Shown here: piece after piece, positions 7,475-33,621 of the stretch | How the letters are laid out: the number at the start of each line of letters is the position of its first letter | Numbering within the stretch: position 1 is the stretch's first letter | Assembly: GCA_017413085.1 (NCBI GenBank) | Contig: JAFPVC010000027.1 | Span: 1 to 55,358, forward strand | DNA: 55,358 bases | DNA from: Prevotella sp. | GTDB taxonomy: Bacteria; Bacteroidota; Bacteroidia; Bacteroidales; Bacteroidaceae | Direction of reading: 5' to 3' | Translations under genes and position numbers: made by a program | Notes under the pieces: generated by a model | Told to the model about the DNA's origin: nothing | The model's input: the letters and a program-made list of their open reading frames with translations, nothing else | Databases searched by the model: none

Positions 7475-7545
7475 ATACCATAAAGAGGGTATGCAGAATA
7501 ACTAACAAAGGGGATTTCACAGGTGGGAAAAACTGAGTAATTTTG
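7475..7545 (+). promoter_or_regulatory. Tandem operator and promoter of susC
   Basis: The distal site ATACC-N8-GGTAT lies at 7475-7492. Five bases later comes a second, looser site ATAAC-N8-GGGAT at 7498-7515. Exactly 22 bases then lead to the -7 box TAATTTTG at 7538-7545, with a GGGAAAAA run in between. The same layout with the same spacings precedes susD and two double-OsmC units. There is no TTTG at the usual -33 place, which the proximal site covers, so an activator is likely. The 165 bases from about 7460 to 7620 are a near-copy of the susD leader. Confidence 0.8.
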
Positions 7546-7643
7546 CACTCAGAAATCAGTGACGTGCACCAGTCTGACGACTGACGTTCACTATTTCTTC
7601 ATGCGAAGAAGCACTCAGAAATCAAAAACAAATAAATAAAGTT

Positions 7644-7691
7644 ATGGCAGAATTAAAGGAGATTACAATGATGAAACGAATGTGTTGCTGA
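7644..7691 (+). CDS. Possible 15-codon leader ORF upstream of susC
   Basis: ATG at 7644 opens MAELKEITMMKRMCC and stops at 7691, inside the transcribed leader of susC. It could be a leader peptide, but nothing beyond an open frame supports it and the susD leader has no counterpart. Confidence 0.18.
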   Translation: MAELKEITMMKRMCC

Positions 7692-7769
7692 CAGGCAACA
7701 AAGAGAAGATTTTTATTGACAGTTTGAATCAACAACATTAACAAAAACTTGAAAAAACTGATTGTATTT

Positions 7770-10700
7770 ATGGAGAAAAGAATATACACATTACTTATTG
7801 CACTGGCGACGGTAGTGTCGTCATTTGCACAGACCACTATCACCGGACGAGTGATCGATGCACTGACAGGCGAAGGACTCATAGGTGCTTCGCTCGTGCC
7901 TAAGAACTCAAAGGAACTCGGTGCAGTGACCGACGTTGACGGTAACTTCACGCTGAAGACTAATGTTGATTTGCCGCTCACGCTCAGCGTGCAGTATATA
8001 GGTTATCGCTCACAAGAGGTTGATGTATATGACGCCGACGAACCGGTGAACATCAGCCTGGCTGCCAGCGGCAACTCAATCAATGAGGTAGTAGTCGTGG
8101 GTTACGGTACGCAGCAGCGTAAGAAACTGACTGGTTCTGTGGCTTCACTCAACACCGAGGACCTGCTGATCACCCCCGTATCTATTGACAATGCACTGGG
8201 CGGTGCAGTGGCTGGTCTTGACGCTACGGCTTCATCAGGACAGCCGGGTGCTGCCATCAACATTCGCATACGTGGCGGCAACTCAATCAATGGCGGCAAC
8301 GAACCGCTCTACGTTATCGACGGTGTGCTGGTATATAACAGCAGCGATGCAACAGACGCGGGCAACACCGTGGCAGGAACAAACTTCAACCCTCTGGCAT
8401 CAATCAACCCTTCTGACATAGAATCCATACAGGTGCTCAAGGATGTGTCGGCATCTGCCATCTATGGTTCGCGCGGTGCCAACGGTGTTATCATCGTAAC
8501 TACGAAGAACGGCAAGAAGGGCCGCCTGAAGGTTGACTACGGCTACTCTGTTGGCGTATCGTCAGTGCGCAAGCGCCTCGACCTGCTCAACGCTCAGCAG
8601 TGGGGTGACCTCTATCTTGAACTCGCCACCGATGCACAGAAGACGGCATCGGGCGTGACGCCGGAACTGGTCAGCACATGGGGTGCAGGCACCGACTGGC
8701 AGGATGCACTCTTCCGCACTGCCGCCACACAGCAGCACCAGCTCTCAGTGAGCGGCGGTTCTGACAAGGAGCGTTTCCTCATATCAGGCAACTACACCGA
8801 CCAGAATGGTGTGATACGCGGCAGTGACTTCACACGCCTTGGTGCCCGACTGAACTATGAGCGCGACATCTTCAAGAACGTGACCGTGGGTTTGAAGGCC
8901 AACTTCTCAAAGAGCACACAGACGGGCTCGCAGTCGTTCCGCGGACAGTCAAACGGTGTGAGCGGACTGCTCGAACTGGCACTGCGCACATCGCCGGCCG
9001 TACCTATTTACAACGCTGACGGCTCTTACAACTATGCCAACCCATTCGAGGCAGGCGACTTCGTGCGCAACGGTCAGACACCAAACGCCATTGCCGACCT
9101 CAGTCAGGTGTCGGCAGAGACAAAAGTGGACAACACTCTCGTATCGGCCTTCGCACAGTGGGAAATCATCAAGGACCTGCGCTTCCGCACACAGGGTTCG
9201 GTGAACATCATCAACACACGCCAGAACGTATTCGGACCCGTGACATCACAGATAGGCTTCAACTCCGACGGCTATGGCGCAGTAGGTTCAAAGCGCTGGG
9301 AGAGCGACCAGTTTGAGGCTACGCTCACATGGAACAAGAAGTTTGGCATACACGAGATTGAGGCAATGGGCGGCTACACCTATCAGCAGGAGAAGAGCGA
9401 GCGCGTGCTCGGCTCATCAGCCAACTTCGCCAACGAAAACCTCGGCTACCACAGCCTGCAGTCAGGTTCGCAGCTGGTGGCTACTGAGACCGACTTCATT
9501 ACATCGGTGATTTACTCAGGCATTGGCCGACTGAACTACTCGCTGCTCGACCGCTACCACCTCACCGCTACGCTGCGTGCCGACGGTTCAAGCCGCTTCG
9601 CCAAGAACAACAAGTGGGGATGGTTCCCGTCACTGGGCTTCTCATGGAACGTCAACGAGGAGAAATTCCTGAAGCGCCACAAGTGGATTGAAGACCTCAA
9701 GCTGCGCGCCAGCATCGGTACCGTGGGCAACCAGGAGATTGGCGACTATAAGTTCCTCTCCACATACGCTGCCACACACTATTTCCTCGGTGGCACCAAG
9801 AACATAGCATACTACCGCTCTGCACTGGGCAACGATGACCTGAAGTGGGAGACCACTACATCGTATGACCTCGGTATCGACTTCAACGTGCTGAAGGGCC
9901 GCCTCGGCTTCATCTTCGACTTCTACCACAAGAAGACCACCGACCTGCTGCTTGACATTCCGGTGGAGGAGACCACAGGCTTCAGCCGTCAGCTTGCCAA
10001 CGTGGGCAACGTGACCAACGACGGTGTGGAGTTTGCCGTGAACGCTACGCTGTGGCAGTCGAAAGACCTCACATGGAGCGCCAGCGCCAACATCGCCCAC
10101 AACAAGAATGAGGTGACGAGCATCGGCGGTTCGCAGAAGGAGATTATCAACACCAACCAGACCATCATCCGTCCGGGCGAGGCACTGGGCACATACTACG
10201 GCTGGGTGTTCGACGGCATCGTGCAGAAAAGCGACGACCTCGACAAGGTGCCAGTACCGTCAAACAAGACATACGTGGAGTATGGCGACGTGAAATATGT
10301 TGACCAGAACGGCGACGGCTACGTTGACCAAGAGAACGACCGCGTGGTGCTCGGCTCTACACAGCCAAAGTTCACTTACGGCTTCTCTTCACAGCTGCGC
10401 TACAAGAACTGGGACTTGGCAGTGACCTTCCAGGGTTCATACGGCAACAAGCTCTACAACCAGCTTGAGCAGGCCCTCGAATCACCAAACGCAAGTTACA
10501 ACGCATCAACGAAACTGCTCGGACGCTGGACAGAGGACAACCCAAGCACCACCATACCGCGTGCCTTTGCGCAGAACAACTACAGCGCATACCTCGACAG
10601 CCGTTTCATAGAGGATGCCAGCTACCTGCGCCTGAAGAACATACAGCTGGGCTATAACTTCCAGCCACGCCTCGGCAACGGACAGAAACTCGGCATATAC

Positions 10701-10835
10701 CTCTACGCCTCAGCGCAGAACCTGCTGACGATAACCAACTACAGCGGCTTCGATCCAGAATACAGCGGCTATGTTGACCGTGGCACATACCCATCAGCAC
10801 GCACCTTCACTTTCGGCGTGAAGTTCTCATACTGA
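7770..10835 (+). CDS. SusC/RagA-family TonB-dependent outer membrane transporter
   Basis: This 1021-residue protein has a signal peptide (RIYTLLIALATVVSSFAQ), a carboxypeptidase-like N-terminal domain (TITGRVIDALTGEGLIGA), the SusC plug motif NEVVVVGYG and a TonB plug, then a long beta-barrel ending in an aromatic residue (GVKFSY). SusC proteins import oligosaccharides or peptides across the outer membrane with TonB energy, together with a SusD lid. I chose ATG 7770 over the TTG at 7749 because the signal peptide starts there. The SusD partner is unusually 1.5 kb downstream with its own promoter. The substrate cannot be read from sequence; no neighbouring glycosidase cluster points to one. 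Confidence 0.95.
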   Translation: MEKRIYTLLIALATVVSSFAQTTITGRVIDALTGEGLIGASLVPKNSKELGAVTDVDGNFTLKTNVDLPLTLSVQYIGYRSQEVDVYDADEPVNISLAASGNSINEVVVVGYGTQQRKKLTGSVASLNTEDLLITPVSIDNALGGAVAGLDATASSGQPGAAINIRIRGGNSINGGNEPLYVIDGVLVYNSSDATDAGNTVAGTNFNPLASINPSDIESIQVLKDVSASAIYGSRGANGVIIVTTKNGKKGRLKVDYGYSVGVSSVRKRLDLLNAQQWGDLYLELATDAQKTASGVTPELVSTWGAGTDWQDALFRTAATQQHQLSVSGGSDKERFLISGNYTDQNGVIRGSDFTRLGARLNYERDIFKNVTVGLKANFSKSTQTGSQSFRGQSNGVSGLLELALRTSPAVPIYNADGSYNYANPFEAGDFVRNGQTPNAIADLSQVSAETKVDNTLVSAFAQWEIIKDLRFRTQGSVNIINTRQNVFGPVTSQIGFNSDGYGAVGSKRWESDQFEATLTWNKKFGIHEIEAMGGYTYQQEKSERVLGSSANFANENLGYHSLQSGSQLVATETDFITSVIYSGIGRLNYSLLDRYHLTATLRADGSSRFAKNNKWGWFPSLGFSWNVNEEKFLKRHKWIEDLKLRASIGTVGNQEIGDYKFLSTYAATHYFLGGTKNIAYYRSALGNDDLKWETTTSYDLGIDFNVLKGRLGFIFDFYHKKTTDLLLDIPVEETTGFSRQLANVGNVTNDGVEFAVNATLWQSKDLTWSASANIAHNKNEVTSIGGSQKEIINTNQTIIRPGEALGTYYGWVFDGIVQKSDDLDKVPVPSNKTYVEYGDVKYVDQNGDGYVDQENDRVVLGSTQPKFTYGFSSQLRYKNWDLAVTFQGSYGNKLYNQLEQALESPNASYNASTKLLGRWTEDNPSTTIPRAFAQNNYSAYLDSRFIEDASYLRLKNIQLGYNFQPRLGNGQKLGIYLYASAQNLLTITNYSGFDPEYSGYVDRGTYPSARTFTFGVKFSY

Positions 10836-10850
10836 TGAAAGAGAAAAGAG

Positions 10851-10906
10851 ATATAATGAAATAAGGATATAAGGGGTTAACTCCTTATATCCTTATTTCA
10901 TTATAT
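10851..10906. terminator. Long perfect hairpin after susC
   Basis: A perfect 24-base inverted repeat (10851-10874 with 10883-10906) and an 8-base loop follow the susC stop by 16 bases. It should end susC transcription and, read the other way, the methyltransferase relic. Confidence 0.8.
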
Positions 10907-10929
10907 GATTCACTCCTCTATTACAAAAT

Positions 10930-11267
10930 CTATTTCTTTCTTGCCCTGAAATAAAGCATGGCACCCTCTACGTGGAAACTGACAATATCACAGAAAGGCT
11001 CCAGTCGCTTGCGCACGTCTGCCGCCGTGTCAAACGGAGGAGTAAACCAGCCCATGCGGGTCATGACGGTCTTGGCGAGCCAGTCAGCAACCTTCTGTTC
11101 ACCAGAAATATAGAAACATGCAAGCAGTTCACCACCAAACTTCAGGGTTCGCAGTATCTCTGAATATGCCTTGTCCTTGTTGAGGAACACATGAAGTCCG
11201 TTCATGCAAAGCACATAGTCGAAGGAACCGTCTTTTTACCTGCATCATTTTTCTCTTCAAATCGCAT
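10930..11267 (-). pseudogene. Internally deleted class I methyltransferase
   Basis: The minus strand keeps a start (MRFEEKNDAGKK from ATG 11265-11267) behind a good -7 box (TACCTTTG near 11270-11277). It then runs out of frame into the C-terminal part DGSFDYVLCMNGLHVFLNKD ... LKFGG, typical of UbiE-like S-adenosylmethionine-dependent methyltransferases. The cofactor-binding N-terminal half, roughly 100 residues, is gone. The remaining C-terminal 95 residues have no start codon of their own in a sensible place. It is a relic lying between susC and susD. Confidence 0.75.
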
Positions 11268-11389
11268 CGCAAAGGTACGGCGAAATAATAACATGTGCAA
11301 TACCTAAAACGCAGTGTTTTACGTATTGCACACCCCGTTGACCTGCATGAACAGGTTAATCAAAAATAAGTATTTTCTGTTTGTATTTC

Positions 11390-11420
11390 TTTGCACATTC
11401 CACAAAAATTACTAACTTTG
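11390..11420 (+). promoter_or_regulatory. Promoter of the small secreted protein gene
   Basis: TTTG (11390-11393) and TAACTTTG (11413-11420) are 19 bases apart, the standard Bacteroidetes spacing. The ATG is at 11473. Confidence 0.75.
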
Positions 11421-11472
11421 CAGTTGGGTTTTTATTACACCTTTATTTATAACCTATTAAAACAATAAAAAG

Positions 11473-12078
11473 ATGAAACGTATTTTATTAGCTATTTTGC
11501 TTGCTGGCTGCACGCTGGCAATGTCAGCCCAGATGAAAGTGAACTATAAGGGATCAAAACCAGCGATAGATGACTTTATATGGGCTTTGGTTACTTACTC
11601 CACTGAGGAGACAGATGCTGATCATGAGTCTATCAATGCCGTGAGAGATGCCATGGAAAGGTATCGTCGGGGCGCATCACAGCCTAAGAACATAACATTT
11701 ACGGTGGATAAGCAGAATGGCTACGCGCTTTATGAAAGCAAGCAGGACGAAACGCTGGTGAGGGTTGATATGTGCTATTGGAACGAGGCTGACGGCAAGC
11801 ATAAGATTTTCGCTTTTAACACCACCACGTTTATGGATGGCCAGAGCTACAGGGGTGAGTTTGACGGGATCATGTTCTATCGTTATGACAATATCACGAA
11901 AAGGCTGGATACTTACTTCAGCGACAACTTCGATGCGTTATATGCCTGTGATTTTGAAGGTTGGAACACTTACTCCCTGCCACGTCAAGGTAAGGATATC
12001 GTAGTGACAACGTGGTATGATGACGCTCCGAGCAAGAAGAGAACGGTGAAGTGGAATGGTCACGGCTTTAGCAAATGA
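11473..12078 (+). CDS. Secreted protein of unknown function
   Basis: The 201-residue product has a clear signal peptide (RILLAILLAGCTLAMSAQ). The mature part has alternating polar and aromatic strands (YALYESKQDETLVRVDMCYW, MFYRYDNITKRLDTYF) and looks like a small beta-rich periplasmic or surface protein. I do not recognise the family. It has its own promoter and terminator and sits between susC and susD. A role linked to that pair is possible only by position. Confidence 0.85.
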   Translation: MKRILLAILLAGCTLAMSAQMKVNYKGSKPAIDDFIWALVTYSTEETDADHESINAVRDAMERYRRGASQPKNITFTVDKQNGYALYESKQDETLVRVDMCYWNEADGKHKIFAFNTTTFMDGQSYRGEFDGIMFYRYDNITKRLDTYFSDNFDALYACDFEGWNTYSLPRQGKDIVVTTWYDDAPSKKRTVKWNGHGFSK

Positions 12079-12104
12079 TTAGTCACACATAATATATATA
12101 TAAT

Positions 12105-12137
12105 AAGGAACGGGTTCATGTGATGAGCCCGTTCCTT
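12105..12137 (+). terminator. Terminator of the small secreted protein gene
   Basis: AAGGAACGGGTTCAT pairs with ATGAGCCCGTTCCTT across a 3-base loop, followed by TTGTTTTATT. Confidence 0.8.
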
Positions 12138-12187
12138 TTGTTTTATTAAAGCGGATAACGCTGTATCACAACGCTTTACATGGTGTA

Positions 12188-12258
12188 ATACCATAAAGAG
12201 GGTATGCGGAATAACCAACAAAGGGGATTTCATGGATGGGGAAATAGTCGTAACTTTG
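12188..12258 (+). promoter_or_regulatory. Tandem operator and promoter of susD, near-copy of the susC leader
   Basis: The distal ATACC-N8-GGTAT site is at 12188-12205, the proximal ATAAC-N8-GGGAT at 12211-12228, and the -7 box TAACTTTG at 12251-12258, again with 22 bases between. The likeness to the susC region continues into the leader to about 12340, including the hairpin CAGTC..GACTG and the palindrome TTCTTCGTACGAAGAA. The susC copy reads TTCTTCATGCGAAGAA and keeps the stem. The whole block looks like a duplication that gave susD its own promoter. Confidence 0.8.
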
Positions 12259-12387
12259 CACTCAGAAATCAGAGACGCGCACCAGTCTGGCGACTGACGT
12301 TCGCTATTTCTTCGTACGAAGAAGCACTCAGAAAAAAAGGAGTTTAAGTATAAAAGTATTGTATAAAAAAAGAAAGGAGACGACAAC

Positions 12388-14049
12388 ATGACAAAAACAA
12401 GTAAACTGAAACACGCGCTCGGCTTATATTATGCCGTCAATGCGGTTATCGTGATTCTCTTCCTGCTGCTGGTTTCAACATTCATCACTTCGTGTGAATC
12501 GCTCGACCAGGGCAACCAGAGCGAACTGGCGGAGAGTAACCTGCCACAAAGCGATGCCGACGCAAAGGCGCTCGTAAATGCGGTGTATGCATCAGACATC
12601 GAACTGGCAACGACATACATGTACCTCATCGACCTGACCACGGAGACTACAGTCAGCGGCGAGAACCCCAACGGCGGCGGTGGTATGCTCGGACTGCTCT
12701 CATGGGACGGTACAAACTCATACCTCGTTCGTCTGTGGGCTGCTGCATACACATCAATAACACGCGCCAACGACGTCATCGCAAAACTGGAGCAAAACCC
12801 CGACGGCGTGTCGCCGAATATTGCCGCACAGGTTATAGGCGAGGCTAAGTTCCTCCGCGCTTACTATCTCAACTACGCAGTACAGATATGGGGCCCCGTG
12901 CCCATTGTCACAAAGGTGGGCGAAGGCAAGAACGCAGTGCGCAACTCTGAGACGGAAGTATATCAGCAGATTGTCAACGACCTTACGGATGCTGCAGAAC
13001 TGCTGCCGGAGGTGAGCGAGTATGGCCTGACTGACATAGGCCGTGCCACCAAGGGTGCTGCAAACGCTGCTCTGGCAAAAGTATATCTGACTTGGGCACA
13101 GGTGGACGACGACCTGACAGATGCACAGCGCCATGAGTATTTCGCAAAGTCGGCAGAATATGCACAGAAGGTTATCGACTCCGGAGAGTATGCCCTTGAG
13201 GAGGACTTCTACGACAACTGGAACAACCAGAACCGCAACGGCAAGGAGAGCATCTTCGCCATACAGTTCTACCTTGGTTCAAGCACACGCGTCAACGATG
13301 CCAGCGGCAACAACCACCTCTGCCACTGCTCATTCTCAACAAGCTACAGCGTATCACTGCCGCACATAGCACCGGGACCTGACAACACCGTAGAGAACTC
13401 ATACCTTGAGGGTGACCAGAGAAAGGATGTGTCGTTTGCCGATTCACTGTGGCAGCCGTCAAAACAAAGCTGGTTCCATTTCTACTATGATGCCGACGGT
13501 GACGGCACACGCGAGTCTGGCTTCTCACGCTACAACAAATACATAGACCACGACAGTCCGGAAACCAGTGCTGCAGACCGCGCCATGAACCGCCAGGTCA
13601 TCCGCCTTGCAGAGGTTTACCTCGTGCTTGCCGAGGCCATCAACGAGCGTGACCACCAGCCGAACCAGAAGGCATACGATGCCTTCAACAAGGTGCGCCG
13701 CCGTGCTTTCCGCGAAGACATCAACGCCACAGAGGCACAGGCTCACGACCTGGAGGCAGGACTCGACTACGAAGGTTTCAAGCAGGCCATCATACAGGAG
13801 CGCTCATGGGAATTCACCCTGGAGCAAAAGCACCTTCTCGACCTGAAGCGCTGGAAGATACTGGTGAAGACCATCAAGAACAGTGCACTGGCAAAGAACT
13901 ATCCTGAGTACAACAAGCAGACGATAGACTTCAAGCACTACCGTTTCCCAATACCGCAGGCACAGCGCAACGTCAACCCGAACCTCTGGCAGAACTACGG
14001 TTACGATGGCTCAACAATCACCAGCAACCCATACGTGGGAAGAGAGTGA
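12388..14049 (+). CDS. SusD/RagB-family outer membrane lipoprotein
   Basis: This 553-residue protein has an N-terminal hydrophobic run ending in the lipobox STFITSC, with Cys36 as the lipid-bearing residue. The SusD fold follows (LWAAAYTSITRANDVIAKLE, AKFLRAYYL, tetratricopeptide-like helices, and a C-terminal EVYLVLAEAINE with FPIPQ). SusD forms the lid on a SusC barrel and binds the ligand at the cell surface. A good Shine-Dalgarno AAAGGAG precedes the ATG. Normally susD follows susC within tens of bases; here it is 1.5 kb away. It is the likely partner of the SusC protein at 7770-10835, since the two share a regulatory block. Confidence 0.95.
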   Translation: MTKTSKLKHALGLYYAVNAVIVILFLLLVSTFITSCESLDQGNQSELAESNLPQSDADAKALVNAVYASDIELATTYMYLIDLTTETTVSGENPNGGGGMLGLLSWDGTNSYLVRLWAAAYTSITRANDVIAKLEQNPDGVSPNIAAQVIGEAKFLRAYYLNYAVQIWGPVPIVTKVGEGKNAVRNSETEVYQQIVNDLTDAAELLPEVSEYGLTDIGRATKGAANAALAKVYLTWAQVDDDLTDAQRHEYFAKSAEYAQKVIDSGEYALEEDFYDNWNNQNRNGKESIFAIQFYLGSSTRVNDASGNNHLCHCSFSTSYSVSLPHIAPGPDNTVENSYLEGDQRKDVSFADSLWQPSKQSWFHFYYDADGDGTRESGFSRYNKYIDHDSPETSAADRAMNRQVIRLAEVYLVLAEAINERDHQPNQKAYDAFNKVRRRAFREDINATEAQAHDLEAGLDYEGFKQAIIQERSWEFTLEQKHLLDLKRWKILVKTIKNSALAKNYPEYNKQTIDFKHYRFPIPQAQRNVNPNLWQNYGYDGSTITSNPYVGRE

Positions 14050-14260: not shown

Positions 14261-15082
14261 ATGTTACAGAATGCAGAACCTGGACGAAATAACAATGAGC
14301 GGCTCGGAACTCCCGATAACCTATTTCATAAAGTCACAGAAACCCGAGGACAGGGAGATTGTGACAGAGGCAGTATACGAGTGTTTGAGGAGAAACTGGC
14401 CAGTCAACCGCATGGAGATTGGCTATCTGGTGAGAGAGATGCGCAGGAAGCAGTCAGCCGTTTCATAATAGAAACGGCCAAGGAAGCAGGACTGTTCATA
14501 GAACACAGTCGCTGGACAGCCTTCGGAGAACGCAAACGACTTCCATCGGGCGAAAGCATCATCTATGAGAACAGCGCACAAGGTATAGTGTATAAGGTAA
14601 GAGACCCCTTTGCCAAACTGCACCTTAAAAGTGGGCGTTCCTTAGATGTGTTATATGACCATGTAATACACAATCTCCTTTTTCCCAATGCCGCCTATAG
14701 GCTAATAGGCATCTCAGAACTGTCAGGTGGGGTCAGGATGATACTTGCACAGCCTTTCGTATATACTTATGCCATACCTACAAAAAAACAGATAGAGGAA
14801 TACTTGATGTCAATAGGACTTCAGGCAGAGGATCATTATTATTATGGCAATGAATGGCTTGCTGTCACCGATGTAAGTGACAGCAGTGACAACGTAGTAT
14901 TTGATAATAATGGGAAACTACTGTTTATCGACCCCATTATTAAATTCAAGAAACCAGCAGTAGAGGTGATAGAGCATTACATTAAATATGGTCTGCCTAC
15001 TGTCGAAGACAATAAGGAATATGGACTCTTAAGTCGTTTATTGCACTTTGTTCAGCGGATTTACAAGATTTTTTCCATATAG
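14261..15082 (+). CDS. Polyvalent-protein-type kinase-like protein
   Basis: From about residue 65 on, the 273-residue frame looks like the kinase domain found in phage and plasmid polyvalent proteins (PF18762 type). It has IVYKVRDP with a candidate ATP-binding lysine, LDVLYDHVIHNLLFP, VRMILAQPFV, a catalytic-loop-like DVSDSSDNVVF and a DFG-like LLFIDPI. A related protein is encoded at 42401-43195. The first 60 residues look like a wrong-frame translation, because another frame (14271-14468) is more protein-like there. The true start is therefore uncertain, and a frameshift joining the two is possible. Kinase activity is inferred. Confidence 0.68.
   Translation: MLQNAEPGRNNNERLGTPDNLFHKVTETRGQGDCDRGSIRVFEEKLASQPHGDWLSGERDAQEAVSRFIIETAKEAGLFIEHSRWTAFGERKRLPSGESIIYENSAQGIVYKVRDPFAKLHLKSGRSLDVLYDHVIHNLLFPNAAYRLIGISELSGGVRMILAQPFVYTYAIPTKKQIEEYLMSIGLQAEDHYYYGNEWLAVTDVSDSSDNVVFDNNGKLLFIDPIIKFKKPAVEVIEHYIKYGLPTVEDNKEYGLLSRLLHFVQRIYKIFSI
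14271..14468 (+). CDS. 65-codon ORF overlapping the kinase-like gene, possible displaced N-terminus
   Basis: This frame reads MQNLDEITMSGSELPITYFI and later VTEAVYECLRRNWPVN, with a composition more natural than the overlapping +1 frame. It stops at 14468, exactly where the kinase-like frame begins to look real (RFIIETAKEAGLFI). Either it is a separate small gene translated just before the kinase, or it is the true N-terminus and a one-base change split the gene. Confidence 0.4.
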   Translation: MQNLDEITMSGSELPITYFIKSQKPEDREIVTEAVYECLRRNWPVNRMEIGYLVREMRRKQSAVS

Positions 15083-15782: not shown

Positions 15783-15853
15783 ATACTATATATATGGTAT
15801 GCGGAATGCCGTATATTGAGTATTGTGCAGGTGGGGAAAACTGAGTAATTTTG
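15783..15853 (+). promoter_or_regulatory. Tandem operator and promoter of the first double-OsmC gene
   Basis: Distal site ATACT-N8-GGTAT at 15783-15800, proximal ATGCC-N8-AGTAT at 15806-15823, 22 bases, then -7 box TAATTTTG at 15846-15853. A GGTGGGGAAAA run lies between, as in the susC promoter. The spacings are identical to those of susC and susD although the surrounding sequence differs, so they are probably kept by selection. Confidence 0.78.
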
Positions 15854-15928: not shown

Positions 15929-17212
15929 ATGAACAAGAGCAGGATAACATCTTTTGCGATTGCACTGACCGCCCTCTCTCTCTGGGGAGGTGCGGCACAG
16001 GCCCAGCAAAACGACCAGCGACTGAACAAAGGCATTACCGATGCCTCATGGTATAAGAAGGCAGCGAAGAGCGCACCGTCGTTCCGTGACTTCCTCAAGC
16101 GCAGGAAAACAGCCGTAAACAACTGGCTCGCCATTCCAACCAGCGCACTGCAACCCATCACCATCAAGGCCTTTGCAACGGCTGAGCAACGTGCCGGCAC
16201 TCGCCACGTGATAATACGCGAACACCAGTTTCTTAACGACAGCGGCTACAACAACGGTGGCTTCGACCTCGGCATTGGCACACCCGACCACGTTATCGCT
16301 GCCATTGCAGGCGACATCATCGACAGCTATGCCACGCAGGCAGCCATCAAGGGCATCGCAATCGACTCGCTCGCAGTCAACGTAAAGCAGACTGGTCGCA
16401 GCATCGGTGACTGGGGCATCGACTACACCATATATATAGATTCACCTGCATCTGACGCACAGCTCGAGGAACTGCGTCTGCTTGCCGAGAAGAACTCACC
16501 ACTGTATCAGTTCTCACTGCAGGCTAACAAGGTGGAGACCACTATAGAATATACCCGCACACCAGAGGAACTGGAGATACCTCCAACGTATCAGCCAGGT
16601 CTGCGCGAGTTCATCGAGTGGGAGATTAAGAAAGGCGAAGGAAACAAGAAGCTCCGTGAGAGCGGACAGCGTCCTGACCGCAGCAAGTTTGGTGGCTATG
16701 CCTACGACTACCCATACTCACGCAAGAACGAGTTTACGCCAGCACAGAGCGACAGCTACCTGAGTCCAGACGGACCATCAGCGTTCATCAATCCTGCAGC
16801 AGGTGTGACAGTGGTACAGGTGCGCCACCACCGCGTAATACAGGATCATCCACAGATATTCGGCGGTAATGACCTTGGTGCCACGGCAGTGGAAGCCCAC
16901 ATCGGACTGCTCGGCTCATGCTTCACTCACGTGGCAGAGGGCACTGCAGCACGCAATAAGATACCTCTCGACACCCTGAAGGTATCGCTCACCGCAGAAC
17001 TGGACCCACGTGCCGGTCGCAAAGGTTTTGAGAATACACCGCTCTATCCTACGAATATAAAGATGAAGGTGGTAGTAAGCAGCCCACGCGACGAGGCAAC
17101 CATCCGTCAGCTTGTAGAAGACACCGAGAAGGGATGTCCTATCTACAACCTCGTAACACGCGCACAGACCCTCACCGGCCGAGTAAAGCGCGTAACGGCA
17201 AGCAACAAGTAA
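15929..17212 (+). CDS. Secreted tandem OsmC-like protein (paralogue 1)
   Basis: The 427-residue protein has a signal peptide (ALTALSLWGGAAQAQ) and two OsmC/Ohr-like halves. The first (about 75-210) keeps the fold pattern (GTPDHVIAAIAGDIIDSYAT, SPASDAQLEELRLLAEKNSP) but lacks both redox cysteines. The second (about 290-420) has Cys331 in LLGSCFTHV and Cys403 in KGCPIYNL, matching the peroxidatic and resolving cysteines of OsmC/Ohr. Those enzymes reduce organic hydroperoxides, usually as cytoplasmic dimers of single domains. Here one chain could form a pseudo-dimer with one live site outside the cytoplasm. The gene has a Shine-Dalgarno AAAGGAG and sits alone under the tandem operator. Peroxidase activity is inferred. 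Confidence 0.85.
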   Translation: MNKSRITSFAIALTALSLWGGAAQAQQNDQRLNKGITDASWYKKAAKSAPSFRDFLKRRKTAVNNWLAIPTSALQPITIKAFATAEQRAGTRHVIIREHQFLNDSGYNNGGFDLGIGTPDHVIAAIAGDIIDSYATQAAIKGIAIDSLAVNVKQTGRSIGDWGIDYTIYIDSPASDAQLEELRLLAEKNSPLYQFSLQANKVETTIEYTRTPEELEIPPTYQPGLREFIEWEIKKGEGNKKLRESGQRPDRSKFGGYAYDYPYSRKNEFTPAQSDSYLSPDGPSAFINPAAGVTVVQVRHHRVIQDHPQIFGGNDLGATAVEAHIGLLGSCFTHVAEGTAARNKIPLDTLKVSLTAELDPRAGRKGFENTPLYPTNIKMKVVVSSPRDEATIRQLVEDTEKGCPIYNLVTRAQTLTGRVKRVTASNK

Positions 17213-23548: not shown

Positions 23549-23586
23549 AAAGAGAGCGGGCAACCGAAAGGTTGTCTGCTCTCTTA
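23549..23586 (-). terminator. Terminator of the C_GCAxxG_C_C gene
   Basis: AAGAGAGC/GCTCTCTT and inner CAACC/GGTTG stems around GAAA; it begins at the stop codon and is followed by TTTGTTCTG on the minus strand. Confidence 0.75.
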
Positions 23587-24213
23587 AATCTTTACATCCT
23601 CAAACCTGACGGTCGACAGCTCTATGTCGCCGTTGTTATACAGCACCTCGATTACCTTCTGTATGGCGCAGAGGTTGCAGCCGTCGCAACGGTCGAAGTG
23701 GTATTTACCGTAGATGTCGCCGCACTTCACCGTGCCCTCCTGCTTCTTCAGAGCCTCAAACACCTTGGCTGCCATCTCCTGGTGGTGCTTCTTGTCGCCG
23801 CTGGCATAATAGCCCAGTGCCATGATTGCACCGGTGAGCGCACCGCACGTGCCTTCGCCAAACGTGTGGCCTATGCCGCCTGAGAAGGAGTCGGACATGC
23901 CACGCAGCTGCTTCTCAGTAAACAGCGGCCCCTGCGCTCCCTGCGGCACGCCGAGAGTGGCGCAGATAGCAGTCAGCGAGAGCGATGCGCAGCCGTAGTG
24001 CTGTCCATAGCGTGATTCGAGCTGCCGCTTCGCCTCAGCCTTCAGCGAGTCGAGCGAACTGTGGCGGCTCACGGCCTGGAATACCGACGGGAATGCCCGC
24101 CGTAGCGAGTCGTTGTCGGTGGCAAGGCGCACCGTGTCGGCCTTTATGTCGGCTGCCTGTGCCTGTGCAGGCAGGAATCCCAACAGTGCTATCAGTAAAT
24201 CTCCTTTCTTCAT
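23584..24213 (-). CDS. Secreted C_GCAxxG_C_C family cysteine-rich protein
   Basis: The 209-residue protein has a signal peptide (LLIALLGFLPAQAQA) and the family pattern: Cys75 in YGCAS, Cys123 in GTCGALTGAIMALG, and a C-terminal cluster Cys164, Cys176, Cys179, Cys182 (KCGDIYG, RCDGCNLC). The family is thought to be redox-active or metal-binding, but no reaction is established. Secreted versions would act in the periplasm. It stands alone under a perfect ATACC-N8-GGTAT site, placing it in the same proposed regulon as the double-OsmC genes. That context supports a thiol-redox role, by inference. Confidence 0.86.
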   Translation of the reverse strand: MKKGDLLIALLGFLPAQAQAADIKADTVRLATDNDSLRRAFPSVFQAVSRHSSLDSLKAEAKRQLESRYGQHYGCASLSLTAICATLGVPQGAQGPLFTEKQLRGMSDSFSGGIGHTFGEGTCGALTGAIMALGYYASGDKKHHQEMAAKVFEALKKQEGTVKCGDIYGKYHFDRCDGCNLCAIQKVIEVLYNNGDIELSTVRFEDVKI

Positions 24214-24238: not shown

Positions 24239-24286
24239 CAAAGTTACAACTTTTTTCCCATTCACGCAATACCGCTTATACGGTAT
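24239..24286 (-). promoter_or_regulatory. Single-site operator and promoter of the C_GCAxxG_C_C gene
   Basis: The perfect site ATACC-N8-GGTAT is at 24269-24286; exactly 22 bases separate it from the -7 box TAACTTTG (24239-24246, minus strand), with GGGAAAAAA between. The distal second site seen at the other four promoters is missing here. Confidence 0.78.
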
Positions 24287-28253: not shown

Positions 28254-28261
28254 CAAAGGTA
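28254..28261 (-). promoter_or_regulatory. Promoter -7 box of the 27454-28191 gene
   Basis: TACCTTTG on the minus strand, 62 bases before the start codon. Confidence 0.6.
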
Positions 28262-28702: not shown

Positions 28703-28713
28703 CAATAACGTTT

Positions 28714-30846
28714 CTATGAAAACCTTTGTCTTTCCGCAGCCCCTGCCCCTGTGCCTTTATACTTGCTCTTTGCCTGATTATAGGTATAACGCAAGGTCAG
28801 TTCGACATAACGGCTGTCCCGTTTGTTCTGATTCGTAAGGACAACCTTTTCTGAACGTAAAACCGCACGCTTTTGACTATAAAAGAGGTCATAACCCGCC
28901 AAGCGTATGGAAAGGCAATCATTGAGGAACGTCTTGGTGATGCTGGCATTTGCATGCAACGTGACATTGTCTTTTTCCACGTTATTTTCGTTACCCTTAC
29001 TTATAAGCATAAGTGTCATTTCTGCACTAAGTGACTTAGAGAACTTGAACGTGTTGGCAGACTGTAACAAACACATCGGCTTGTTCATACGCTGAACAGC
29101 ATCTGTGGTTTGCAGCGTCATCCACTGCTTATACAGCAATACCATAAGCTGAGGATGCCACAAGCCTACGTTTGGAGCATAGCTTACAGAGGCATTGACA
29201 GCCTTCAGACTGTGATAGTTGCTGCGCGACATTACAGATACGGCAGGATTATCTTGCAATGGCTCCATCCAGTAGAATATAGCATCACGGGTGTTACTGT
29301 ATCTTACCTTCGCTGTCCACCTCTTCCATATAACCTGTGCCTGCAGAGTATTTTCTATAGCAGGCTTCAGATAACAGTTGCCTGTCTGCAACGTAAACTG
29401 ATTGATATAAAACACCGCCTTGCTGAGGTCCCTGTAAGACGGCCTGCTGATGCTTACTCCATAACTCAGCGTGCCGCTGACCTGTCCCATTTTAGTTTGC
29501 AGTGATAAATGCGGAAAGAAATGGTTGTATGTGCGACTCTCATTATTCTGTAAGACGCCATTATCGTAATAGTCGTCATGGTTGTGCTCATAACGCACCC
29601 CGGCACTGACGGAGCCGAAACTCAACGGATGTGTATACTCCACAAACGGTGCCACGGTATAATTTCGCTGAGTAGTGTTGCTCGACTTTATATACCCTTC
29701 AGGGTTTGTGCTCACCTGCTCACGTTTCGTATTGGTATATTCCGCTCCAAATGACAGGTTGCCGCCCATAAGTGGATGAGCAAGCACAAGCTTAGTTGCC
29801 CACAAGGTTGACTTGCTCTTGCTTCCGATAGTAAGTGTGCGGTCACTGTGCTCATCGTTCGTTTCTTGATAAAAGCCGTCGTTAGAACGGTTGTTATGCC
29901 ACCAGCTGGCGTTGAAATCCATGCTCCACCCTGCTACCTTACCGCTATAGTAGGCACTGAGTTCCTGAGTAGGTTTGTCATAGTATTCAAAACGTCCTGT
30001 ATTTTGCGTATTGTCATACGGCTGTCCGTCTTTCATAACAGCAGAGCTGAAGTTCACTCTCTCGTCCTTGTGTGGAAAATGCGTCCACGCATATCGAACC
30101 CCCAAAGAATTATCCGCATCAATTACATAGTTCAATCCTGCATTTGCCCGTATGGTATGTATGTCAAAAGTATTGTTTGTCTTCTCCTTCAACTGCCACA
30201 ACGTACCAGCATCAGACACTTGGTTCAGCTCACTTTTATCATAGTTTGTCTCTTTCATGAAGCGGAACATTCCGAACACATCAACCCCTTTATGACGATA
30301 GTTCAGATTGAATTGCTCATCTATGCCAGTATTGCAAGACTGTTTCAACACAAGTTTTTCATCCATACTCAGCCCCTCACCCTGCCTGCGCACTGTTTTT
30401 ATCTGCACCACTGCAACAACAGAGGCATCATACTTCGCTCCTGGATTGGTTATCAACGTAATGGCAGCTATGTCCTGCGACTTCAACTGACTCAGTTCCG
30501 CATTATCCTTTACCAACCTTCCGTCTATATAGAATACTGGCTCACCGTTTCCAAATAAGTTGTATTTGTCATTGTCAACCTTATACATACCAGGTATGTG
30601 ACGTATCACATCATCTGCCGTGCCTGCCTGACTCAGGAATGTGCCACTCACGTTTATACGCACCCCCTCATGTGTAAGTTTGTATATAGGCACATTACCA
30701 TTTACGACAATCTCACCAAGTTGTTGTTCTTTAAGTGCCCTCTCTATGCTTAGTTGCAGAGAGTCGACGGGCTCTTTGTTGATTGCAAAAGCAGAGATAC
30801 TCACCATTGACAACATTATGGTACACTTTGTTACGATATTCCTCAT
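28714..30846 (-). CDS. TonB-dependent-receptor-like outer membrane beta-barrel protein
   Basis: A protein of about 710 residues with a signal peptide (RNIVTKCTIMLSMVSISAFA), a plug-like domain (TADDVIRHIPGMYK, EPVFYIDGRLVKD, ITLITNPGAKYDAS) and a barrel of the OMP_b-brl_3 type (YRHKGVDVFGMFRF, SLGVRYAWTHFP). Such proteins form gated barrels, some for TonB-linked uptake; the ligand is unknown. It lacks the carboxypeptidase-like N-terminal domain of SusC. I start at ATG 30846 because the 13 preceding codons overlap the terminator of the upstream operon. No promoter of the usual form is clear, so read-through from the double-OsmC operon is possible. Confidence 0.87.
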   Translation of the reverse strand: MRNIVTKCTIMLSMVSISAFAINKEPVDSLQLSIERALKEQQLGEIVVNGNVPIYKLTHEGVRINVSGTFLSQAGTADDVIRHIPGMYKVDNDKYNLFGNGEPVFYIDGRLVKDNAELSQLKSQDIAAITLITNPGAKYDASVVAVVQIKTVRRQGEGLSMDEKLVLKQSCNTGIDEQFNLNYRHKGVDVFGMFRFMKETNYDKSELNQVSDAGTLWQLKEKTNNTFDIHTIRANAGLNYVIDADNSLGVRYAWTHFPHKDERVNFSSAVMKDGQPYDNTQNTGRFEYYDKPTQELSAYYSGKVAGWSMDFNASWWHNNRSNDGFYQETNDEHSDRTLTIGSKSKSTLWATKLVLAHPLMGGNLSFGAEYTNTKREQVSTNPEGYIKSSNTTQRNYTVAPFVEYTHPLSFGSVSAGVRYEHNHDDYYDNGVLQNNESRTYNHFFPHLSLQTKMGQVSGTLSYGVSISRPSYRDLSKAVFYINQFTLQTGNCYLKPAIENTLQAQVIWKRWTAKVRYSNTRDAIFYWMEPLQDNPAVSVMSRSNYHSLKAVNASVSYAPNVGLWHPQLMVLLYKQWMTLQTTDAVQRMNKPMCLLQSANTFKFSKSLSAEMTLMLISKGNENNVEKDNVTLHANASITKTFLNDCLSIRLAGYDLFYSQKRAVLRSEKVVLTNQNKRDSRYVELTLRYTYNQAKSKYKGTGAGAAERQRFS

Positions 30847-30876
30847 TGAACGCACTAAATTGAATGAAAACACAAA

Positions 30877-30910
30877 GGAAGCCATACAGCACGAATGCTG
30901 CTATGGCTCC
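30877..30910 (-). terminator. Terminator of the 31-33 kb double-OsmC operon
   Basis: On the minus strand GGAGCCATAGCAGCA pairs with TGCTGTATGGCTTCC over TTCG, followed by TTTGTGTTTT. Confidence 0.75.
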
Positions 30911-30947
30911 TATTAAAGAAAAACATTGATTAGATTAAAAGTTCCTA

Positions 30948-32198
30948 TTACTTCCTTCCGTCAGGAAATGGGTTGAAACTGCCGCGCACAATCTTGTGCT
31001 CGAAGGTCTGTGTGTCCTTGAAAAGGTTATACATCGGGCAGATGCCTTCCACGCGGCGCAACCACTCCTTCACCTTCTCCTCGCTCTCCGGGGTCTGCAC
31101 GTGCATGGTGTAGCGCACGTTCTGCAGGTTGATAGGAGTCTTCTCATATCCCTTGCGGCCGGCGCGCGGATCCCACTCTGCCTGTACGGTGAGGCGGATG
31201 GAGTCAACGTCGAGGTCGAGCTCTGCTGCCTGTCCGAGTGATATGTGGGTGATGCAGGTGCCGAGTATGCCGAGCACGCCCTCAGATGATGTCATGCCAA
31301 TGTCGGTGCCACCGAGATACTCTGGGTTGTCGTGCAGGATGAGATACTTGTCGTTGACCGTAAGCTGGCGCACGCCGTTAGGGAACACCTTCACCCACGG
31401 GCCGCGTGGTTCGCGCTTCGTGGTACTGCGCTCACGGTTGCGACGCTGTGCAGCAGTATCATTCTTCAGAGCTTCCTGCTTGGCTCTGCTGGCAAGTATG
31501 GCCTGACGCTTTCCCTTGATGTATTCACGCAGTCCAGGAAGCACACCGCCTCCCAATACCTTCTCGCGAGGTGTCTCGGTGCGGTCTATGATGAGCTGTG
31601 GCGTAACGGCCAGCTTCACCAGTGTGGCAACGGCTGAGTTCTGCTCTGCAAGCACTGCCAACTTCTCCAGTTCGGCATCCGATGCCGGTGACTCGATATA
31701 GATGGTATAGAGGAAGTTGCGCGGATACCACACGCGACCTGTAGGCTCTTTGTCTGGACGGCCGTGAATCTCTATTGTCAGCGAGTCGATGTCGATGCCG
31801 AGCAGTGCAGCCTGATTCAGGTAGCTGTCGGCAAGGTCGGATGCGAATACCGCCTGTGCCGTTGTCGGCGTGTCAACGCCTGAGTCCTGTCCACCGTGCG
31901 AATATCCACAGTCGCCGAGGTAGTGGAAGTCGCGCACTCGCAGTTCGCGTGCACCGGAACGGTTCTTGGCAGTCACGTTGGCGGTCAGCGTCACCTGCTT
32001 GAGGTCGCGCGGCGACAGTGCGTTCCATGCCTCGAGTGCGGTCTTGCGTGCCTTCAAGTGGTTGCGCAGTGACGGAGCGTTCTGCTCCAACTTCTGTTTT
32101 GTGGCATCAGAGCGGAAAATGTCGAGCGGTCCCTGTGCCTGTGCTGCCGCAGATACTGACAGCGCTGCAAATATTAATGATGCTATGTTATTCTTCAT
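30948..32198 (-). CDS. Secreted tandem OsmC-like protein (paralogue 2)
   Basis: This 416-residue protein has a signal peptide (SLIFAALSVSAAAQAQ) and two OsmC-like halves. Domain 1 (70-205) has no redox pair at the OsmC positions, but has Cys97 in YLGDCGYSHGG. Domain 2 (280-400) has Cys315 in GILGTCITHI and Cys387 in GICPMYNL, the OsmC/Ohr cysteine pair. The linker at 235-265 is Lys/Arg-rich. It follows paralogue 3 by 49 bases and has its own ribosome site (AAGGAG), so the two form an operon. The two are much more alike than either is to paralogue 1. A periplasmic peroxidase or disulfide-linked redox protein is inferred. Confidence 0.87.
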   Translation of the reverse strand: MKNNIASLIFAALSVSAAAQAQGPLDIFRSDATKQKLEQNAPSLRNHLKARKTALEAWNALSPRDLKQVTLTANVTAKNRSGARELRVRDFHYLGDCGYSHGGQDSGVDTPTTAQAVFASDLADSYLNQAALLGIDIDSLTIEIHGRPDKEPTGRVWYPRNFLYTIYIESPASDAELEKLAVLAEQNSAVATLVKLAVTPQLIIDRTETPREKVLGGGVLPGLREYIKGKRQAILASRAKQEALKNDTAAQRRNRERSTTKREPRGPWVKVFPNGVRQLTVNDKYLILHDNPEYLGGTDIGMTSSEGVLGILGTCITHISLGQAAELDLDVDSIRLTVQAEWDPRAGRKGYEKTPINLQNVRYTMHVQTPESEEKVKEWLRRVEGICPMYNLFKDTQTFEHKIVRGSFNPFPDGRK

Positions 32199-32247
32199 AT
32201 TCGTATTATCTCCTTCTTTTATTTATGATGTTGCAAAATGTGAATGA

Positions 32248-33453
32248 TTACTTTCTGTTGCTTTTCTTTACCCTTACTATGCGGTGCTCAAATGTCTGTG
32301 TGTCCTTGAACACGTTATACATCGGGCAGACATTCTCTGTCTGTTCTATCCACTTCTGCACGGTGGAGAAAAGTTCAGGCGTTGTGACATAGAGTGTCAC
32401 GCGCAGGTTCTGCGGTTCTATAGGCTCGTTTTCGAATCCCTTGCGTCCGGCGCGAGGATCCCATTCACCCTCCACACGCACACGGAGCGAGTCAATGTCG
32501 AGGTCGAGCAGTGCTGCCTGTCCTTCTGCTATATGGGTGAGGCAGGTACCCAGCACGCCCAAGGCATTCTCACGCGAGGTAAGGCCGATGTTCGTTCCGC
32601 CGAGGTAGGCAGGGTTGTCATGCACGATATGATACTTCTCTGAGATTGTCAGTTCACGCGCACCGTTGGCAAACACCGTGGCCCACGGACCCGTGACGGG
32701 CTTTGCCGACTTTGGCTTCGGGTTGTTCTTGGCTTGTTCCTGTGCCCAGAGCTTTGCCTGGCGCTTGCCCTTGATATACTCGCGCAGTCCCTCAAGCGTT
32801 GCACCCTCAATGACACGCTCACGTGAAGAGTGGGTATATACTATGCTCACCGGCACCGTCACGGCCTTCTTTATCAGCGTGACAACCGACGAGTTCTTCT
32901 CAGCCTCAACTGCCAGTTGCTCCAGTTCGGCATCTGATGCCGGTGAGTCAACGTAGATGGTGTAGAGGAAGTTGCGGTTGTAAGCCACGCGGTTTGTAGG
33001 AACCTTGTCTGGCTGACCGTGAATTTCTATTGTCAGCGAGTCGATATCGATGCCTGCCAGTGCAGCCTGGTTGATGTAGCTGTCGGCAAGGTCGGAGGCA
33101 AACACGGCGGCAGCCGTTGTCTGGGTCTCCACGCCGGCATTCTGTCCGCCGTCGGTATATCCGCAGTCACCTACGTAATGAAACTCCCTGACGCGCAATT
33201 CGCGGTAGCCGGCACGGTTCTTTGCCACCACGTTGGCGGTCAGCGTCACGGGTTTCAGTTCGCTTGCCGGCACGGCGTTCCATGCTTCGAGTGCTGCCTT
33301 GCGTGCCTTCAGGTGCTGACGCAGTGTGGGAGCATTCTGCACGAGCTGTGCTTTCTTCTTTGCAGAGCTGAATATAGACTCCACACTCTGAGTCTGCGCT
33401 GCTGCCGTTGTTGCCACTGCAGCCAGTGTAAATGCTAAAATACTTTTTTTCAT
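32248..33453 (-). CDS. Secreted tandem OsmC-like protein (paralogue 3)
   Basis: A 401-residue protein with a signal peptide (SILAFTLAAVATTAAAQ). As in paralogue 2, domain 1 keeps the scaffold (AAAVFASDLADSYINQAALA) without the redox pair and has an extra cysteine in VGDCGYTDGG. Domain 2 carries Cys304 (VLGTCLTHI) and Cys376 (NVCPMYNV) plus the conserved EWDPRAGRKGF. I start at ATG 33453, preceded by GGAAAGGAG; the longer frame to 33492 would add a charged stretch before the signal peptide. It is the first gene of a two-gene operon under the tandem operator at 33551-33621. Its leader contains six octamer repeats. Confidence 0.87.
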   Translation of the reverse strand: MKKSILAFTLAAVATTAAAQTQSVESIFSSAKKKAQLVQNAPTLRQHLKARKAALEAWNAVPASELKPVTLTANVVAKNRAGYRELRVREFHYVGDCGYTDGGQNAGVETQTTAAAVFASDLADSYINQAALAGIDIDSLTIEIHGQPDKVPTNRVAYNRNFLYTIYVDSPASDAELEQLAVEAEKNSSVVTLIKKAVTVPVSIVYTHSSRERVIEGATLEGLREYIKGKRQAKLWAQEQAKNNPKPKSAKPVTGPWATVFANGARELTISEKYHIVHDNPAYLGGTNIGLTSRENALGVLGTCLTHIAEGQAALLDLDIDSLRVRVEGEWDPRAGRKGFENEPIEPQNLRVTLYVTTPELFSTVQKWIEQTENVCPMYNVFKDTQTFEHRIVRVKKSNRK

Positions 33454-33497
33454 ACTCTTATTTTCTCCTTTCCGTTTTTTATTTGTTATCAATCCTT

Positions 33498-33536
33498 CAA
33501 TTTTTCAATTTTTCAACTCTTCAATTCTTCAATCCT
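33498..33536. repeat. Octamer repeats in the paralogue 3 leader
   Basis: About five TTCAAYYY-type octamers, the complement of the TTGAARRR unit at 20465-20725, lie between the promoter and the start codon. Confidence 0.75.
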
Positions 33537-33550
33537 TCTGAAAACTTTTG

Positions 33551-33621
33551 CAAAGGTACTGCCTTTTTCCCTGCTGCACAATCCTATAAATTGGTTATTC
33601 TTCATACCATAAACGTGGTAT
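33551..33621 (-). promoter_or_regulatory. Tandem operator and promoter of the 31-33 kb double-OsmC operon
   Basis: Minus strand: distal ATACC-N8-GGTAT at 33604-33621, five bases, proximal ATAAC-N8-AGGAT at 33581-33598, 22 bases, then -7 box TACCTTTG at 33551-33558. The spacings equal those at susC, susD and paralogue 1, although the sequence between differs. Confidence 0.8.

Follow-up and report, generated by a model that had tools for sequence, protein, structure and literature searches.

Five promoters in one stretch of Prevotella sp. DNA appear to carry the same operator, which raises the question of which protein reads it and what the genes behind it have in common. The stretch, hereafter the window, comprises 55,358 nucleotides (assembly GCA_017413085.1, contig JAFPVC010000027.1, positions 1 to 55,358 of the forward strand), and the promoters precede a susC gene, a susD gene, the OsmC-family gene osmC1, the pair osmC3-osmC2 and a gene for a C_GCAxxG_C_C protein. 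An initial annotation, made from the window alone, had proposed an envelope redox/uptake regulon. We now assign a probability of about 0.85 to another reading, in which these sites are tandem operators of a NarL-type regulator with a role in sulfur and cysteine supply (operator, regulator and sulfur role taken jointly). It draws on computation, namely on how the operators are built and spaced, on the sulfur genes in the regulon, on the co-occurrence of the regulator gene with the sites and its linkage to them, and on protein fold class.

When the sequences were checked directly, all five promoters were found where the initial annotation had placed them and with the spacing it had given (Table 1). 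The ATACC-N8-GGTAT palindrome occurs as it was described, save for an ATACT arm in the osmC1 promoter. In the double-site promoters, a looser second copy begins 23 bases on and is followed by 22 bases and then the TAnnTTTG box at -7, while the C_GCAxxG gene has a single perfect site, located where the proximal copy would be and likewise 22 bases from its -7 box. The GGGAAA run is equally real, starting 12-13 bases 5' of the -7 box in five out of five promoters, within the 22-base spacer; family-wide, its A-rich part alone persists (A in 34, 41 and 29 of 51 sites). The first bases past the -7 box, GCACTCAGAAA, are common to the susC and susD promoters and to three promoters outside the window (C42:1598, C42:4905 and C58:1485).

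The palindrome by itself carries little signal in the window's genome (G000): it occurs 133 times per strand at ≤1 mismatch against 118 times for the reversed pattern, which is no clear enrichment, and it was rejected as a marker. The full arrangement does stand out genome-wide, as the double site with the promoter spacing gives seven matches at ≤3 mismatches and none for the reversed control. The single-site version with the promoter spacing is weak at the same tolerance (49 matches, control 29). Nor is the word pair GGTAT and TAnnTTTG enriched as such, since GGTAT-N38..52-TAnnTTTG yields 30 matches against 31 in the reversed control. The gap is exactly N45 in seven of these 30, and all seven keep at least four of the five ATACC letters at the left; all 16 readable of the 23 non-N45 matches keep three or fewer. 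Six perfect palindromes lie outside the described promoters, four within and two between (L028, L032) open reading frames (ORFs) of 130 amino acids or more, and none of these six has a TAnnTTTG box at N45.

The claim that spacing is kept where flanking sequence is not turned out to be false for susC and susD, whose promoters lie inside a duplicated stretch of ~180 bp. The promoters in the two copies (window about 7447-7630 and 12160-12340) drive susC and susD separately, and a 201-amino-acid ORF (11473-12078) sits between the two genes. A SusC/SusD pair under separate promoters is unusual. The osmC1 and C42:1598 promoters likewise have a common upstream flank. Part of the similarity among promoters is thus due to duplication, and the sites of this genome are not all independent. 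The evidence from other genomes is independent of these two duplicated promoter pairs.

Beyond the window, the same genome has three canonical double sites, two in C42 and one in C58. Behind the C58 site lies a cysteine-synthase-like gene (PF00291; C58:326-1270). One C42 site is followed by the gene of a YtkA-like lipoprotein and then by that of a 654-amino-acid protein without a Pfam match, which, read by eye, would be a TonB-type receptor; the other C42 site precedes a secreted protein of 296 amino acids. A ninth promoter (C45:64433) has its distal palindrome one base closer than canonical, and its gene row reaches a partial glutamate-cysteine-ligase-like ORF that is cut by the end of the stretch and scores below the cut-off (NF002688, 143 bits against 425).

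Across 201 genomes of the family, the double site at ≤2 mismatches has 52 matches in 30 genomes, compared with three for the control. The matrix and the ORF tally use 51 of these 52 (G163:C1:1818496 was left out). By the rule chosen, an ORF stands behind 48 of the 51 sites; of the three remaining sites, two (L195, L202) fall within or next to longer ORFs whose starts are at the site itself or 5' of it. A Pfam tally of the 48 ORFs (E ≤ 1e-5) returned Cys_Met_Meta_PP (n = 11), PALP (n = 9), Plug (n = 4), ThiF (n = 3), DsrE (n = 2) and OsmC (n = 2), and one each of sulfite reductase with TusA, a hexapeptide transferase in the place of CysE, SusD, radical SAM with SPASM, YtkA, and hemerythrin with GerE. 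Ten of the 48, by eye, belong to one secreted family without a Pfam match, and nine of these were aligned. Wider stretches around the sites add cysH, cysN, ThiS, a family-2 encapsulin and a SufS-type cysteine desulfurase over the NCBIfam cut-offs, as well as sulfite reductase (PF01077) and a gene at the place of cysD; an encapsulin-cargo model and DsrE2-like and TusA-like genes remain below cut-off. Gene names given here without a family accession, such as cysD, were read by eye from sequence. One palindrome serves two divergent promoters in L195, L198 and L200, and divergent cysN/cysH and sulfite reductase genes share a single palindrome.

Because most genes behind double sites are sulfur-assimilation genes, the regulon is best read as one for sulfur and cysteine, not for peroxide defence. 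This claim rests on the double sites, as single-site patterns are mixed. On this view, the window's OsmC and C_GCAxxG proteins are best regarded as envelope members of the sulfur regulon; the company of genes in which OsmC, SusC/SusD and C_GCAxxG proteins are found suggests that they serve sulfur supply, and the shared promoter design suggests that the five window genes would be co-regulated.

Some members deserve separate mention. A family-2 encapsulin with a cysteine desulfurase lies behind a double site or in the regulator's row in L198, L195 (G017, G075), L287 and L288, so that a transcriptional switch for sulfur encapsulins is possible. In L201, a radical SAM/SPASM gene behind a double site (5936-7156), followed by a sulfatase-like gene, was taken for a sulfatase maturase; in L213, the neighbour of the regulator gene (7978-9150) matches an anaerobic sulfatase maturase over the cut-off. 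A link to the scavenging of host-glycan sulfate is possible. The recurrent secreted protein of ~300 amino acids (C42:5082-5972, in locus L025, and 14 relatives) had no Pfam match in the members scanned. Its family profile gave weak matches alone against the PDB (best E 0.065; two are phosphate-binding proteins), and the structure model of one member has a mean predicted local distance difference test (pLDDT) score of 77.3.

The candidate regulator is a NarL/LuxR-type protein encoded outside the window (C58:1538-2179), the gene of which ends 52 bp from the cysK operators. An orthologous LuxR-type gene follows cysK in G017 and is divergent to a serine-acetyltransferase-like gene in G005. The regulator is present near full length in 14 out of 14 site-bearing genomes examined, but the four members of the same genus that lack a site also lack the regulator; among the 13 genomes of the genus, the same nine have both regulator and site. 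At E ≤ 1e-20, 69 of the 201 family genomes carry it, among them 29 of the 30 that have a double site (Fisher 7e-15, kinship ignored). In G073, the sole exception to the strict pattern, a weak site stands in front of the gene for a hemerythrin-GerE protein, which fits the reading as an iron-type operator discussed below.

A search in the 201 genomes with the distance left free (ACCAY-N4-RTGGT-N20..50-TAnnTTTG) separates the same two groups by where the gaps fall. In regulator-positive genomes, 55 of 98 matches have a gap of 46 or 47 and 18 of 98 a gap of 24, compared with one and three, respectively, out of 37 matches in regulator-negative genomes. By either pattern, a site occurs in 45 of 69 regulator-positive and in two of 132 regulator-negative genomes (p 1e-24, kinship ignored). 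In 28 of the 45 genomes with both, the regulator gene lies ≤6 kb from a site, a limit of our own choice. Among 20 further genomes reached via loci of a wider collection, six carry the regulator at E ≤ 1e-15, namely Hoylesella shahii, Prevotella multiformis, Phocaeicola plebeius, Parabacteroides sp. Marseille-P3160, Prevotellamassilia timonensis and Myroides guanonis.

The regulator is predicted to have a NarL-type build, with a GerE helix-turn-helix (HTH) and an N-terminal receiver fold. The C-terminal GerE/LuxR HTH (PF00196) is over cut-off in four orthologues (L199, L213, L286, L289) and was aligned in the protein of the window's genome. The receiver (PF00072) passes its cut-off in L289, falls short of it in both L199 and L286, and is not listed for L213. 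The protein matches VraR and NarL over its full length in sequence, and the fold of an orthologue model (L112; mean pLDDT 81.5, predicted template-modelling score 0.58) matches LiaR, VraR, RcsB and NarL. All 12 regulator rows have Asp at the likely phosphoacceptor site, with an acidic pair of DN or DK rather than DD. By eye, no sensor kinase was recognised beside the regulator gene in the loci read, where no dedicated search was made; E. coli NarL differs in this respect.

The association extends beyond the family. Phylum-wide, the regulator at E ≤ 1e-30 is found in 49 of 296 genomes. Three belong to the window's family and the other 46 to a single family in a different class, which at a guess looks like green sulfur bacteria. 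In four of the five stretches read from that distant family (L286, L287, L288, L290), the gene order is O-acetylhomoserine sulfhydrylase, regulator, cysK; cysE, encapsulin and cysteine desulfurase genes come next in L287 and L288, and sulfate ABC transporter genes in L290. The L287 sulfhydrylase, cysK, EpsC-type transferase and encapsulin and the CysT of L290 are over NCBIfam cut-offs. Immediately between regulator and cysK, L286 carries ATACCGCAAATATGGTAT, 5 bases and ATGCCGTATATGCGGGAT (7756-7796) and L287 carries ATACCCTATTTGCGGTAT, 5 bases and ATGCCCTTTACAGGGGAT (8607-8647), a tandem of 18 bp, 5 bp and 18 bp that matches the one in the window's genome in both architecture and place. In L290, a perfect ATACCATGTTTGTGGTAT lies 5' of a solute-binding-protein gene (PF13531) in the sulfate transporter row. 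The operators in these three stretches number one at zero, one at one and one at two mismatches, against shuffled means of 0.025, 0 and 0.475. No TAnnTTTG box occurs 20-55 bases past them, so the promoters there look different. In L289, an OsmC gene (2117-2566, minus strand; PF02566) directly follows the regulator gene (2624-3268, minus strand), which supports the link between OsmC and sulfur in the window.

How would such a protein act? The matrix of 51 distal sites reads TACCAYN-NN-NRTGGTA, i.e., two inverted 7-base halves 2 bp apart, with A at position 6 in 43 and T at position 13 in 42 of the 51 although both positions were left free in the search. The proximal place reads roughly ATRCC...GGKATTG and extends as far as the -33 region. 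Counted from the -7 box, the spacing would put the operator centres near -41.5 and -64.5. An excerpt of PMC7419079 describes NarL sites in the same terms, as an inverted repeat of two 7-base halves 2 bp apart, and activation of E. coli ogt by NarL from tandem sites at -44.5 and -77.5. E. coli NarL (yeaR, ogt) resembles our regulator in HTH family and full-length similarity and, as far as that excerpt goes, in inverted 7-base halves and tandem sites upstream of -35 with proximal activation, but differs in the distance between centres (33 bp, here 23 or 22 bp) and in its setting (nitrate genes there, a Bacteroidota -33/-7 promoter and sulfur genes here).

These features support the earlier idea that a dimeric regulator binds at two sites, the proximal of which covers the -33 region, and make a single regulator for the shared architecture plausible. 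We propose that the regulator binds directly, one dimer per 7-2-7 repeat: a proximal dimer at about -41.5 would overlap the -33 region and contact RNA polymerase, and a second dimer would occupy the better palindrome at about -64.5 (or one base closer). The regulator, encoded directly before the cysK promoter, would thereby control sulfur and cysteine acquisition, driving SusC, SusD, the OsmC proteins and the C_GCAxxG protein from the window and, elsewhere in the genome, cysK, the lipoprotein/receptor pair, the secreted protein and the row reaching the glutamate-cysteine-ligase-like gene. That the distance to the -7 box is constant points to a proximal dimer that touches polymerase and activates. 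The content of the regulon suggests that it is probably switched on when sulfur or cysteine is scarce, as does the rise of the SrpI encapsulin under sulfur starvation in Synechococcus, reported in an excerpt of PMC8049743.

The alternative that survives best keeps both regulator and operator and differs in sign alone, with the protein repressing its genes when sulfur is plentiful. A protein bound over the -33 region could indeed block polymerase, and this counts against our choice of activation. Gaps to the -7 box nevertheless pile up at 24 and at 46/47 in regulator-positive genomes, as contact with polymerase predicts, and NarL activates from comparable places (PMC7419079, in excerpt). On the strength of the ogt precedent we favour activation by roughly four to one and consider repression unlikely.

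An envelope redox or peroxide regulon under an OxyR/PerR-like or thiol-sensing factor would account for the OsmC-family and C_GCAxxG proteins downstream in the window. The uptake half of this proposal holds, given SusC, SusD and the TonB receptors. The redox half is not supported, as the operator in other genomes precedes genes for cysteine synthase, O-acetylhomoserine-sulfhydrylase-type enzymes, sulfite reductase, CysN/CysH, CysE-type and ThiF/ThiS/DsrE proteins, a sulfur encapsulin operon and a radical-SAM protein of sulfatase-maturase type; in the window's genome and 29 other site-bearing genomes, the other members are mostly sulfur-assimilation genes. LysR-type HTH domains (PF00126) have no match in G000 (79% complete) or in G017 (three sites); the search did not extend to PerR/Fur-type factors. 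Sulfur gene content and the lack of a LysR-type HTH in these two site-positive genomes led us to set the peroxide/OxyR reading aside as very unlikely.

Another possibility is that the window sites belong to the iron regulator CdhR, a hemerythrin-linked LuxR protein. A sister operator, TACCTA-N4-TAGGTA, has the same ATACC/GGTAT core and occupies the same promoter place. A single-site scan of the collection returned at least 120 loci, which were typed by their inner bases; 58 of the 120 among the matches listed are of the iron type, 34 of the sulfur type and 28 undecided. A tally of 47 proteins encoded behind CTA-type sites among these matches includes feoAB, flavodoxin and TonB receptors as well as others, and nine of the 58 iron-type loci also contain a CdhR-like LuxR gene or a hemerythrin-LuxR fusion. 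We read the CdhR-like rows as CdhR orthologues. According to an excerpt of PMC10434189, both P. gingivalis and B. thetaiotaomicron respond to iron depletion by raising their hemerythrin and CdhR genes, which in P. intermedia are fused into one; CdhR is reported as a regulator of hmuYR in an excerpt of PMC9666725. The TACCTA operator is a marker of iron genes and probably acts through CdhR.

CdhR (PG1237/BT0520, with hemerythrin-fused forms) and the sulfur regulator are both LuxR-type, response-regulator-like proteins of Bacteroidota, and operators at loci of CdhR-like genes share both the outer core and the position in the promoter. They differ in that CdhR is linked, in the excerpts cited, to iron and heme genes and has a hemerythrin partner; reading the loci by eye showed no such gene adjacent to the sulfur regulator, and no search was made for partners elsewhere. 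CdhR-like rows (the comparison did not include a sequence of CdhR itself) are 21-25% identical to the sulfur regulator or its orthologues, and where the sulfur regulators keep an Asp, the two CdhR-like rows aligned with them have Asn. The inner bases of the two operators also differ (CTA versus CAY), as do the genes downstream, iron versus sulfur; those behind double sites are mostly sulfur genes rather than iron-uptake genes. The presence of the site tracks the NarL-type sulfur regulator, and the weak site of G073 stands before a hemerythrin-GerE protein, as the iron reading predicts for that site. That CdhR binds the window sites is therefore highly unlikely. The window's genome does have an iron-type operator before a hemerythrin-LuxR fusion gene (C28:94763-94810; L266:1347-2300) and, by eye, iron-type sites before a flavodoxin-like gene and rows of outer-membrane receptors (also L267, L268, L270, L271); an autoregulated CdhR-type iron regulon is probable there.

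Highly unlikely, too, is binding by the AraC-type regulator of the window (36228-37028), which is the sole DNA-binding regulator among 30 window ORFs scanned and lies ~2.6 kb from the osmC3 promoter, but has relatives of ≤35% identity (16) or none at E ≤ 1e-15 (two) in the 18 other genomes of 19 searched, and was rejected because no orthologue follows the sites among these 19, site-positive relatives included; AraC factors, moreover, usually bind direct repeats.

Several observations weigh against the NarL-type sulfur regulator. Two of the window promoters are a recent duplicate, and the Fisher values ignore kinship. The free-distance search gives many chance matches (135 against 71 in the reversed control, as table sums), which is why the case rests on the gap positions. 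Neither pattern finds a site in 24 of the 69 regulator-positive genomes, and in 17 of the 45 genomes with both, no site lies ≤6 kb from the regulator gene. In the distant family, L288 and L289 have no operator at ≤2 mismatches. The CAY/CTA split, finally, is not clean, as feoAB-type genes with a CAY-type site occur at L118 and L142.

On balance, we lean towards a fuller picture of a NarL-type master sulfur regulator in Bacteroidota, with a tandem operator before cysK kept in two classes. Under its control would come the reduction of sulfate and the synthesis of cysteine, the sulfur encapsulin, sulfur carriers of the ThiS/ThiF type, envelope proteins such as secreted OsmC and, in some species of the gut, the maturation of sulfatases. 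The regulator would be a paralogue of CdhR, their promoters being told apart by two bases per half-site (CAY versus CTA) at an otherwise identical promoter place. The control of cysteine and sulfate assimilation is the same job that CysB, CysL, CymR and the cyanobacterial CysR perform. To our knowledge, these belong to the LysR, Rrf2 and CRP families and none is NarL-type. A sulfur regulon under one factor is thus known, whereas the factor family, the tandem operator and the content of the regulon are new. Among the titles listed from the open-licence PubMed Central literature, none concerns a NarL-type sulfur regulator or this operator in Bacteroidota, and no regulator of sulfur assimilation in gut Bacteroidales is apparent there. 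The SrpI family-2 encapsulin system shares its encapsulin and cysteine desulfurase genes with the rows described here, but has another regulatory context in cyanobacteria, while here it is tied to the NarL-type regulator. With a candidate gene, an operator and a regulon in hand, the proposal is directly testable. One switch would link the scavenging of host-glycan sulfate (L201, L213), sulfide chemistry and cysteine supply in the gut, and envelope OsmC and C_GCAxxG proteins would acquire a likely nutritional role.

Table 1. Promoter elements and associated genes in the window
Feature	Positions	Strand	Sequence or remark
Distal operator, susC promoter	7475..7492	+	ATACCATAAAGAGGGTAT
Proximal operator, susC promoter	7498..7515	+	ATAACTAACAAAGGGGAT; looser copy
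-7 box, susC promoter	7538..7545	+	TAATTTTG
SusC/RagA TonB-linked receptor	7749..10835	+	TIGR04056, 888 bits; listed start TTG 7749, likely ATG 7770
Distal operator, susD promoter	12188..12205	+	
Proximal operator, susD promoter	12211..12228	+	
-7 box, susD promoter	12251..12258	+	TAACTTTG
SusD-family lipoprotein	12388..14049	+	PF07980, PF14322
Distal operator, osmC1 promoter	15783..15800	+	ATACT arm
Proximal operator, osmC1 promoter	15806..15823	+	
-7 box, osmC1 promoter	15846..15853	+	TAATTTTG
OsmC-family protein 1	15929..17212	+	likely signal peptide; two OsmC-type cysteines in C-terminal half
Single perfect operator, C_GCAxxG gene	24269..24286	-	at proximal place
-7 box, C_GCAxxG gene	24239..24246	-	TAACTTTG
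C_GCAxxG_C_C protein	23584..24213	-	PF09719; likely signal peptide
Distal operator, osmC3-osmC2 promoter	33604..33621	-	ATACCACGTTTATGGTAT
Proximal operator, osmC3-osmC2 promoter	33581..33598	-	
-7 box, osmC3-osmC2 promoter	33551..33558	-	TACCTTTG
Double-OsmC protein 3	32248..33492	-	likely signal peptide; listed start TTG, likely ATG 33453; two halves 30% identical, E 7e-13
OsmC-family protein 2	30948..32198	-	same direction as osmC3, likely one operon
Outer-membrane beta-barrel (OMP_b-brl_3)	28714..30885	-	after osmC2, possibly same operon

Other genes of the window are listed for completeness. A protein of 1333 amino acids with a likely signal peptide and no Pfam match is encoded at 49898-53899, and a polyvalent-protein kinase domain (PF18762) follows susD at 14261-15082. 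The row at 690-6320 (minus strand) comprises T5orf172, a CAP12/Pycsar TIR effector, GmrSD-HNH, an EcoRI-type methylase, an ORF to which no family was assigned and an AAA gene, and is likely a defence/restriction island.

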